NCBI RefSeq assembly: GCF_017306545.1
Contig: NZ_JAFKID010000022.1
Coordinates: forward strand, 25,399-89,398
Length of the DNA: 64,000 nucleotides
Source: Mesorhizobium sp.
GTDB taxonomy: Bacteria > Pseudomonadota > Alphaproteobacteria > Rhizobiales > Rhizobiaceae
Reading direction: 5' to 3'
The notes below the pieces were generated by a model. The model had not been told where the DNA came from. It made no database searches and saw nothing but the letters and a program-made list of their open reading frames with translations. The translations under genes were made by a program, and so were the position numbers. Positions 7,166 through 52,554 of the stretch are shown one piece after another (the stretch's first letter is position 1; the number at the start of each line of letters is the position of its first letter).

Positions 7166-7747
7166 TCAGAAGGTTCGGGTTCCGCGCGAGACGGCGCGCG
7201 CCAGCATGCCGGTGATCTGCGCCTCCGACTTGCGGAAGGAGGAGGCGTCCTGCGCGGTGACGTTGAAGACGACGTTGACCGGCGCGGCGTTTCCGGCTGC
7301 TGCCACCCCCAGGCTGCCGTCGGGGCCGCGGCGCAGCGGCAGGATGGCTTCCGACCCGGCCTCGCCCATCAGGCCGAGATTGCCGCCGAGCGGAAAATAG
7401 GTCGGTGCCGACACGACACCGCCGCCGGCGAAGGGAACGACATGGCCGGGCACGCCGCCCTTGGCGAAAGGCAGGATGCCCGCCAATCCGCCCACCAGCC
7501 CGGAAAACAGCGAACCGGCCAGCGATTGCAGGGGTTGCAGGCCCTGCCTCAGCGCCATGCCGGCCAGGTTGAGGCCGATGCGGCGCAGCACGTCGTCGAA
7601 CTCGCGGCCGCTGACGACAGCGCCCTTCAGCGCCCCGGCCATCTGCGAGCCGAAATTTTCCGACAGTTTGCCGAGGTCGGCCAGCGCCGCCTCGAAGGGT
7701 GCCGTGTCGGCGCGCACGGACACGATGACGTCTTCGGCCAAGGTCAA
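7166..7747 (-). CDS. GTA tail tape measure protein (gp11 type)
   Basis: A 193-residue short tape measure protein: an N-terminal region (VSVRADTAPFEAALADLGKL), a central hydrophobic glycine-rich segment (about residues 72-115), and a C-terminal part with LMGEAGSEAILPLRRGPDGSLGV, typical of TIGR02217-neighbour tail proteins of GTAs. It sets tail length and is probably ejected during DNA delivery. The start appears to be TTG at 7747, overlapping the TGA of the tail-chaperone extension, with an AGGAG only 2-3 nt upstream. The small size agrees with the short tails of GTA particles. Confidence 0.88.
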   Translation of the reverse strand: MTLAEDVIVSVRADTAPFEAALADLGKLSENFGSQMAGALKGAVVSGREFDDVLRRIGLNLAGMALRQGLQPLQSLAGSLFSGLVGGLAGILPFAKGGVPGHVVPFAGGGVVSAPTYFPLGGNLGLMGEAGSEAILPLRRGPDGSLGVAAAGNAAPVNVVFNVTAQDASSFRKSEAQITGMLARAVSRGTRTF

Positions 7748-7968
7748 TTCTCCTGATCCAGAGTATCGGGAAAGGCGCGCATCAGCGCCGCGAGATCAGC
7801 ACGCAGGGGCGCCGGACCGCGCGCGGGCGAGCGGGCGCGCACGGCATGGCCGAACTCGACCGGCGTCATCGCCCAGAAGGCGTCCGGCGAAAGCCGCAGC
7901 AGGCCGAAACCGGCCGCCATCGCGTCGTCCCACGGAAAGGCCGACCGCTCGCCAGCTGCGGCATCTAA
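7744..7968 (-). CDS. Tail assembly chaperone extension (rcc01693/Phage_TAC_6-like), probably made by -1 frameshift from gp10
   Basis: This frame encodes LDAAAGERSAFPWDDAMAAG and continues to SPDAFWAMTPVEFGHAVRAR, matching the rcc01693/TIGR02216 phage tail assembly chaperone family. No ATG, GTG or TTG lies before the conserved FPWDDAM motif. The only in-frame ATG (7920) starts inside that motif and has no ribosome binding site. The frame is exactly -1 relative to the upstream gp10 ORF and the two meet at a slippery heptamer directly before the gp10 stop. The most likely product is therefore a 187-residue fusion (113 residues of gp10 plus 74 from here), like the G/GT chaperones of tailed phages. 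It ends at a TGA overlapping the tape measure start. Confidence 0.82.
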   Translation of the reverse strand, partial: LDAAAGERSAFPWDDAMAAGFGLLRLSPDAFWAMTPVEFGHAVRARSPARGPAPLRADLAALMRAFPDTLDQEN

Positions 7969-8306
7969 GGGTTTTGCGGGGTTGCTCCTGCGGTCGCGGT
8001 GCCGAACGTGGCCACCAGCAATTCCGACACGACCGCCGCAAAGCCGGCCGCACCGTTGGCGCACTGCATGGCGCCGACCGCCTCGTCGTCGATATCTTCG
8101 CCGGCGCCGCGCAGGCCGGCGCCGATCACCCGCATTATGTCGAGTGCCGACAGCCGCCCGGTCGAAAACCGGTCCACCAGCGCGGCAAGATCGTCCGCCG
8201 CATAGGCCGCTTCCAGTTCGGCCAGCGCGCCCAGCGTCAGGCACAGCCTGCGCGGTCTGCCGTCCAGTTCGGCCGAAATCTCGCCGCGCCGCCGGTTCGC
8301 ACTCAT
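7965..8306 (-). CDS. GTA tail assembly chaperone/gp10, GTA-gp10 (Phage_TAC_11) family
   Basis: A 113-residue protein starting MSANRRRGEISAELDGRPRRL with the family core LCLTLGALAELEAAYAADDLAALVDRF and GRLSALDIMRVIGAGLRGAG. The family is listed as GTA-gp10 and assigned to tail tube or tail assembly chaperone function, analogous to phage lambda gpG. The ATG overlaps the stop of the major tail protein (ATGA). The reading frame ends in TAG right after a slippery heptamer, so a minority of ribosomes should continue in the -1 frame into the rcc01693-like segment. Confidence 0.9.
   Translation of the reverse strand: MSANRRRGEISAELDGRPRRLCLTLGALAELEAAYAADDLAALVDRFSTGRLSALDIMRVIGAGLRGAGEDIDDEAVGAMQCANGAAGFAAVVSELLVATFGTATAGATPQNP
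7968..7989 (-). promoter_or_regulatory. Programmed -1 ribosomal frameshift signal joining the two tail chaperone ORFs
   Basis: On the minus strand, AGGAG (7989-7985) is followed by a 10-nt spacer and then A AAC CCT (7974-7968), a canonical X XXY YYZ slippery heptamer in the gp10 frame, immediately followed by the gp10 TAG stop (7967-7965). A Shine-Dalgarno-like stimulator 10 nt upstream of the slip site is the layout known from E. coli dnaX. A possible distal stem (CCGCAGC at 7960-7954 with GCTGCGG downstream) may contribute. Frameshifting is inferred, not observed. Confidence 0.75.
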
Positions 8307-8719
8307 GCCACCACCGCGAAGCTGACCGCGCCCGCCGACTCCAGCGCCATCTCGAACGTGATTTCGCCGTCATGGGCGCCGGAATATTCCAGCGAAGTGA
8401 TCTGGAACGGGCCGGAGACGGTGCCGAAGTCCGGAACCGCCATCTGCCAGGCAGCGATTTCCCCGGCGAAGAACTTCGACCGGATCAGCGCGTCTGACTG
8501 GGCGTCCTTGAAGATGCCTGAACCGCTGACGGCGGCGCGCTGCACACCGCTGCCGGCGAGCAGTTCGCGCCAGCGCCCGGCCGAATCCGCATCGGTGATG
8601 TCCACCGTCTCGCTGTTGAAAGCAATGCGCTTCGACCGCAGGCCGGCGACGGTGACGAAACCGCCGGTGCCATCGGAATCGAGTTTGAGAAGAAGGTCCT
8701 TGCCCTTCTGCGCGCCCAT
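8303..8719 (-). CDS. GTA major tail protein, TP901-1 family (gp9 type)
   Basis: A 138-residue tail tube protein (MGAQKGKDLLLKLDSDGTGG...), with the family signature AFNSETVDITDADSAGRWRELLAGSGVQRAAVSGSGIFKDA. It polymerises as hexameric rings forming the tail tube. A perfect AGGAGG ribosome binding site lies about 5-7 nt before the ATG, the best in the cluster, in keeping with a highly made structural protein. It follows the tail terminator gene by 46 bp and overlaps gp10 by 4 bp. Confidence 0.94.
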   Translation of the reverse strand: MGAQKGKDLLLKLDSDGTGGFVTVAGLRSKRIAFNSETVDITDADSAGRWRELLAGSGVQRAAVSGSGIFKDAQSDALIRSKFFAGEIAAWQMAVPDFGTVSGPFQITSLEYSGAHDGEITFEMALESAGAVSFAVVA

Positions 8720-52406: not shown

Positions 52407-52483
52407 ACGGAGTGTAGCGCAGTCTGGTAGCGCACCTCGTTCGGGACGAGGGGGTCGCAGGTTCAAATCCTGCCACTCCGACC
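52407..52483 (+). tRNA. tRNA-Pro (anticodon CGG)
   Basis: 77 nt with the 7-bp acceptor stem CGGAGTG/CACTCCG, discriminator A, and encoded CCA. The anticodon stem CCTCG/CGAGG holds the loop TTCGGGA with anticodon CGG at 52441-52443, and the T arm contains GGTTCAAATCC. It is isolated between protein genes, with no integrase or phage remnant beside it. Confidence 0.96.
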
Positions 52484-52554
52484 AGCCGAATTCCCGAAAA
52501 AACCCAGCCAAGATCCCGAAAAAACAGAGAAATCCCGGATTTTTCAGGAAAGCT

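Follow-up and report, generated by a model that had tools for sequence, protein, structure and literature searches.

Frameshifting that yields a pair of tail chaperones of the G/GT type is textbook knowledge for tailed phages, and a frameshift site of the dnaX type is known to combine a Shine-Dalgarno (SD) sequence 10-14 nt upstream with a stable downstream hairpin. The lambda G/GT pair and the roles of its chaperones are described in the excerpted text of PMC5009743. Excerpts of PMC8601537 present a programmed frameshift as usual in tail assembly chaperone genes, one Rhodobacter phage being, unlike most, without clear evidence of it; there the frameshift is stated for phages, not for RcGTA. 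In a phage with a cluster similar to that of HK97, the tail chaperone frameshift was measured at 6-7% (excerpts of PMC3711429). As for GTAs, excerpts of PMC11409702 give RcGTA g10 as Rcc01692, with pfam11836, and g10.5 as tail chaperone 2; the word 'frameshift' is absent from the text of that paper, and neither 'frameshift' nor 'chaperone' occurs in PMC7296036, PMC6821227 and PMC11150451. Elsewhere, frameshifts are mentioned for a Wolbachia hydrolase (+1; PMC10299305), beside tail-tube domains (PMC9022992), and as mutations or sequencing errors (PMC3610622, PMC10721106). The GTA literature that we found names the two chaperones as separate genes or omits them. Among the PMC matches listed, no title or abstract opening reports frameshifting of GTA g10/g10.5; since most subscription papers lie outside PMC, the newness of a GTA frameshift, of the Asn-Pro slip site and of its replacement by NTGA starts, all discussed below, is provisional.

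The locus analysed in this work can be likened to lambda gpG/gpGT by its layout, with two ORFs between the tail tube and the tape measure, the second of them in the −1 frame, joined by a slippery heptamer. It differs from lambda in its slip site (A_AAC_CCY), in its GTA-like cluster and in its protein families (PF11836 and PF09550). These families are the same as those of RcGTA g10/g10.5 ('tail chaperone 1 and 2'), with the difference that, in the order of genome G578 (probably Rhodobacterales), the second gene has a start of its own. Finally, the SD-stimulated −1 frameshifting of dnaX and IS911 resembles the present site in that an SD-like element precedes the heptamer by about 10 nt, but the window site has no significant downstream hairpin. 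The comparison of 287 distinct homologous junctions supports programmed −1 frameshifting, and we consider it highly probable that such a ribosomal frameshift makes the G/GT-type tail chaperone pair for the GTA here.

The gp10-TAC_6 junction in the window

By the window we mean the whole stretch of DNA analysed, 64,000 nt long; coordinates are positions in it, and all the gp10 and TAC_6 features lie on its minus strand (Table 1). They form part of a cluster in the order terminase, portal, protease, capsid, PF05135, PF05521, PF11367, tail tube, gp10, TAC_6, short ORF and DUF2460, which is presumably the gene order of RcGTA. The expected Pfam match was found for nine of the ten flanking ORFs, the exception being the 193-aa ORF at the tape-measure position, for which there is no Pfam match at all; the same place is labelled tail tape measure in two GenBank relatives. 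Both the PF11836 and the PF09550 families are named TAC in Pfam, whilst the NCBIfam name of the second (TIGR02216) is rcc01693 family. A profile search for PDB relatives of the chaperones returned weak senseless matches only, none of them credible.

Table 1. Features of the chaperone junction and its neighbours (window positions), with the truncated second genes of two GenBank records (positions in their own loci)
Feature	Positions	Strand	Basis
gp10 (RcGTA g10-like, 'tail chaperone 1'), zero-frame product, 113 aa	7965..8306	-	PF11836 E=6.7e-29
AGGAG, Shine-Dalgarno-like element, 10 nt 5' of the heptamer	7985..7989	-	sequence read; best anti-SD energy -6.6
Slippery heptamer A_AAC_CCT (slip to AAA CCC)	7968..7974	-	sequence read; conservation in homologues
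gp10 stop TAG, adjoining the heptamer	7965..7967	-	sequence read
-1-frame linker LDAAAGERSA, read only post-shift	7939..7968	-	translation
TAC_6 domain (rcc01693 family, 'tail chaperone 2'), FPWDDAM...DQEN, stop TGA 7746-7744	7744..7938	-	PF09550 E=4e-18; TIGR02216 E=2.9e-16
Major tail tube protein (g9-like), directly upstream	8303..8719	-	PF06199 E=1.1e-44
Short ORF, 193 aa, tape-measure position (g11-like), directly downstream	7166..7747	-	position only
GenBank TAC_6 genes annotated from an internal Met, FPW dropped	L320 2887-3066; L321 2908-3066		annotation

The zero frame of gp10 ends in CAA AAC CCT TAG, so that the heptamer A_AAC_CCT (7974-7968) touches the stop codon. The initial annotation had described A AAC CCT as lying directly before the gp10 TAG, AGGAG as lying exactly 10 nt upstream, gp10 and the rcc01693-like frame as being in −1 register, and FPWDDAM as having no start codon before it. 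All of this is confirmed by the coordinates and frames on the minus strand: the heptamer and stop are read at 7974-7965, AGGAG at 7989-7985 with a spacing of exactly 10 nt, and, going upstream from FPWDDAM, the first in-frame start is met 126 nt away, a GTG within gp10. A −1 slip at the heptamer would give AAA CCC TTA GAT GCC..., with TTA (7968-7966) as the next codon, and this reading runs for 74 codons up to TGA 7746-7744, which, added to the 113 aa of gp10, makes the 187-aa fusion that had been predicted. The PF09550 match covers residues 17-75 of the downstream frame translated from 7986.

The pattern AAAACCCTTAG occurs once in the 4.8-Mb genome and the reversed control pattern is commoner (twice), so that rarity alone is no evidence. 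The same genome has a second PF11836 match (G000:C21:59967-60257, locus L322), and a purpose-built profile found no TAC_6 within 400 nt downstream of it. What follows this second match is a different −1-frame ORF, with an apparent GTGA overlap.

Slip sites and putative stimulators in homologous junctions

In total, 320 sequences were analysed (loci L001-L319 and the window's own stretch) with profiles built from the first matches. Both proteins were found in 306 of them, 12 without gp10 and two without TAC_6 within 400 nt being dropped, and merging identical junctions brought the 306 rows down to 287. The sampling consists of best-scoring matches and is incomplete: in the window's order, where 186 of 297 genomes matched, 30 loci and 100 further listed places were taken, with five other listed places and the weaker matches beyond the list left out (barring same-genus loci), and the best 30 loci were used from each of the other searches, in which 127/148, 31/40, 48/99 and 52/385 genomes matched. 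In the genus itself, PF09550 matched in three of the 37 genomes searched (own included), 34 of the 36 others being without a match; the GTA cluster looks rare in the genus and common in the order (186/297 genomes). Start codons were counted in the TAC_6 frame, from 15 nt before the end of the gp10 domain to just past FPW, and slip sites from 12 nt before that end, the in-frame sites being the heptamers A_AAC_CCY, N_NNA_AAN and N_NNU_UUN or the tetramer C_CCY. The synonymous null was obtained, for a set of 212 junctions, by resampling codons synonymously with the gene's own usage.

When no ATG, GTG or TTG start is present, 118 of the 119 junctions are in −1 register, where a third would be expected. 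Heptamers are found in 100 of these 118 start-less −1 junctions, as opposed to 14 of the 104 −1 junctions with ATG or GTG, and counting C_CCY as well brings the figures to 116/118 and 17/104. In the 111 start-less −1 junctions compared with the null, A_AAC_CCY is in frame in 33 (2.2 expected; 0 and 2 in the other frames), N_NNA_AAN in 25 (2.7 expected) and N_NNT_TTN in 41 (2.9 expected), the other two frames holding 0-3 of each heptamer class; the heptamers are about 10-fold above the null. Start-less gp10 tails are longer than those of the start-codon class (medians of 21 and 6 codons), which favors chance matches, and this tail length is taken into account by the null.

The distribution is not all or none. 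Junctions with ATG or GTG (n=51) are also above the null, with 7, 2 and 5 of the three heptamer classes against 0.36, 0.33 and 0.12, so that frameshift and start modes are not strictly exclusive; those with TTG only (n=31) have 13, 1 and 2 against 0.81, 1.03 and 0.14. Both a slip site and an ATG or GTG start are present in 20 of the 287 junctions, and neither in L036, L126, L128 and L203. In addition, the context CCC-TTT-CCC-TGG is common for C_CCU_UUC, its slip codons encoding the start of the FPW motif, so that part of this class overlaps FPW codons, a constraint that the zero-frame null leaves unmodelled. CCCTTT lies across the domain start in 32/118 start-less, 6/31 TTG and 3/104 ATG/GTG junctions, and a heptamer at a position other than the FPW start is present in 77 of the 118 start-less ones. 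In 15 homologues of other lineages the slip site is G_GGA_AAG, which we take to be lambda's own.

The codon choice at the window's type of site is narrow. Asn-Pro in gp10 tails of the −1 set (n=66) is written A|AAC|CCT in 40 cases and A|AAC|CCC in 14, together 54. An A precedes AAC in 54 of the 60 tails with AAC-CCT or AAC-CCC, whereas across the gp10 genes of 53 such loci 7.4% of codons end in A, and A|AAC in gp10 tails is never followed by CCG or CCA, despite a median GC3 of 83%. Under wobble rules, CCU and CCC are both read by tRNA-Pro(GGG), a tRNA whose anticodon would fully match the CCC reached by a −1 slip. The genome carries a gene for it (L334) and also has the UGG and CGG forms; a tRNA-Pro(CGG) gene, at 52408-52484, is the sole tRNA gene of the window. 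The Asn-Pro slip site (A_AAC_CCY, with the core C_CCY) makes tRNA-Pro(GGG) the candidate for the tRNA that slips. According to excerpts of PMC4066793, C_CC.U and C_CC.C count among the shifty tetramers of E. coli when a stimulator is present, whilst C_CCA and C_CCG shift little, and A_AA.C_CC.A stays below threshold even with a strong pseudoknot. The same excerpts (section 17) have CCN codons and mixed purine/pyrimidine heptamers shifting less than others, so that a modest, perhaps low, rate would be expected here.

In a variant of the frameshift that we hold to be rather unlikely, tRNA-Pro could slip alone, from CCU or CCC to CCC, perhaps in the P site with the stop codon in the A site, the preceding AAA being an enhancer. 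Such slippage would fit the E. coli tetramers just mentioned, the adjacency of the stop codon, which adjoins 29 of the 54 A_AAC_CCY sites, and the retention of C_CCY in junctions without a heptamer, where it is present in 16/18 start-less (null 10.2) and 14/15 TTG junctions (null 6.8; 12 abutting the stop), as opposed to 2/13 with GTG (null 2.2) and 0/25 with ATG (null 3.2). The start-less excess is, however, modest, with C_CCY present in the other frames in 5/18 and 9/18, and the TTG class has the TTG start as an alternative; C_CCY alone is a weak signal. Moreover, the frequency of A before AAC, far above 7.4%, argues that, at sites with Asn, the first tRNA is of importance too.

Pairing with the anti-SD sequence, taken as the best 7-15 nt upstream, is stronger than in the synonymous null in all three heptamer classes (n=47, 23 and 46), with set means of −6.57, −6.84 and −8.04 kcal/mol against −5.34, −4.61 and −6.25 (z −4.5, −5.0 and −6.5). 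Folding of single sequences without pseudoknots, on the other hand, detected no significant downstream RNA structure, either at the window site (z −0.12) or in the class means (−0.62, −0.75 and −0.06, against −0.24, −0.03 and 0.09 further down, at +80 nt, with 90 start-codon junctions as another control giving −0.40 after the stop). With no clear signal from such folding, a downstream hairpin was set aside as stimulator; of the dnaX-type layout proposed initially, it is the SD-like element that stands. The frequent contact between slip site and stop codon suggests that the adjacent stop, too, may have a role in slippage.

The way in which the pair would be made can be outlined as follows. Most ribosomes would stop at TAG 7967-7965 and release gp10 (113 aa). 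The pairing of AGGAG with 16S rRNA, and probably also the adjacent stop, would slow a minority, which would slip back one base on A_AAC_CCU, with tRNA-Asn moving from AAC to AAA and tRNA-Pro(GGG) from CCU to CCC, and would read 74 more codons, through the linker and the TAC_6 domain, to give the 187-aa fusion. If lambda is a guide, the role of gp10 would be to coat the tape-measure protein and that of the TAC_6 part of the fusion to recruit the tail-tube protein.

Start codons, closest relatives and annotation

Alternatively, ribosomes could re-initiate and make TAC_6 as a separate protein, from a start that is weak or internal (TTG over the stop, the ATG after TAG, or the Met at domain position 7), the event being coupled to gp10 termination and AGGAG serving as the ribosome-binding site. 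Many homologues have this architecture, with ATG or GTG starts: 104 of the 136 junctions that have them show the −1 register, and the start overlaps the stop as NTGA in 91 of the 104, an overlap that itself gives the −1 register. TTG is the sole start in another 31 −1 junctions and overlaps the stop in 30 of them, 25 as CCT TGA, so that by sequence these cannot be told from TTG initiation. In the window, however, the stop is TAG and the overlapping triplet is TTA, just as CCC TAG relatives give CTA. The ATG directly after TAG is in the gp10 frame, wrong for TAC_6, and unconserved, and was rejected as a start. So was Met7, which is annotated as the start in two GenBank records; starting there would leave the conserved FPW untranslated, yet its W is retained in 111 of the 118 start-less junctions. 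Since re-initiation would also leave the A before AAC in 54 of the 60 tails unexplained, we regard it as improbable here.

The closest relatives, here the 33 junctions (window included) with gp10 at least 73% identical, a cut-off set on viewing, are all in −1 register. In 26 of them A_AAC_CCT or A_AAC_CCC stands directly before the stop; the full heptamer is absent in seven, of which six have C_CCT only and one (L035) combines a GTG start with a long insertion and lacks a slip site. The stop is TAG, which makes no TTG, in 12 of the 26 heptamer-bearing relatives, two of these 12 (L163 and L167) having an ATG or GTG in the linker. Relatives that could be named include Mesorhizobium zhangyense (L191) and Mesorhizobium sp. 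SCN 65-20 (L189, with C_CCT only). A plasmid search with the window gp10 added A_AAC_CCT in Shinella and C_CCT TGA in Methylobacterium bullatum, with no genes listed there. Long insertions between the gp10 stop and TAC_6 were seen in L035, L089, L018, L300, L303 and L315, several of which contain GC-rich, palindrome-like sequence that recalls repetitive elements.

Two annotated relatives, GenBank MW462191 and MW091529, both have A_AAC_CCT followed by TGA, with a TTG start possible in both. In both records the annotated second gene begins only at the seventh residue of the domain, a Met, by which FPW is lost, and in this respect the expectation that annotation would miss the recoding proved right. 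A GenBank search with gp10 of the G578 order returned only these same two phage records.

That gp10 and TAC_6 once formed a single frame, now split by a sequencing error or by decay in a dead element, has next to no likelihood, for although the lack of PF09550 in 34 of the 36 other same-genus genomes means that the cluster is often absent in the genus, the combination of −1 register, slip site and absence of ATG or GTG recurs in 31 of 61 family codes, nine of the ten flanking ORFs tested keep their expected Pfam match, and gp10 and TAC_6 share one uninterrupted frame in 0 of 287 junctions (they are in the same frame in eight, all with a stop between). Transcriptional slippage was rejected, the run being only AAAACCC.

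Two modes across lineages

In the window's order, 93 of the 150 junctions have a slip site, −1 register and no ATG or GTG, and 41 have ATG or GTG without a slip site. The order of G578, which is probably Rhodobacterales, is different: all 28 junctions read there, from best-scoring loci, have an ATG or GTG start, one of them also with C_CCY and none with a heptamer, and 24 are in −1 register, 22 of these as NTGA overlaps. A large family in which 127 of the 148 genomes gave a PF09550 match looks like Rhodobacterales. Start-type junctions also prevail in the orders of G337 and G340 (20/25 and 19/22). Among the 61 family codes, a slip site without ATG or GTG occurs in 31 and starts only in 29, both kinds being found in six.

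These counts bear on the earlier description of the recoding event as conserved. It is so among the closest relatives, where 26 of the 33 junctions keep the heptamer before the stop, and over the heptamer classes the SD-like element exceeds its null, but the 28/28 ATG or GTG starts in the order of G578 rule out conservation of the frameshift across all GTAs. The comparative evidence thus supports the mechanism in the window's lineage, whilst its rhodobacteral extension is not borne out. Likewise, the initial annotation remarked that annotated GTAs usually list the two genes as separate; this would be right in the order of G578, probably Rhodobacterales.

On a tree of 270 of the 287 rows (after score cut-offs), comprising 143 slip, 103 start, 19 both and five neither, parsimony gives 19 slip/start changes, an estimate that is inflated by tree error, as the tree was built from 159 columns. 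Over 10 independent pairs, slip site and ATG/GTG change in opposite directions in 6.2 and together in 0.0, with a median p of 0.03 (p 0.06 with heptamers only). On balance, we lean towards the interpretation that alphaproteobacterial GTAs have repeatedly switched between the frameshift fusion of gp10 and TAC_6 and a free TAC_6 made from an overlapping NTGA start, with the −1 register as the shared stepping stone. If such interpretation is correct, the covalent G-T link of lambda-like tails would be dispensable in these particles. In L031 and L074, A_AAC_CCT is kept and the F of FPW is now ATG (MPW); these two may be intermediates between the frameshift and start-codon modes.

If the frameshift is true of the 31 family codes out of 61, a recoding signal of phages would have been retained by bacteria within a domesticated element, and annotation would be liable to cut the second chaperone at an internal Met. 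As frameshift lineages and start-codon lineages both occur in nature, the need for the G-T fusion could be tested directly.
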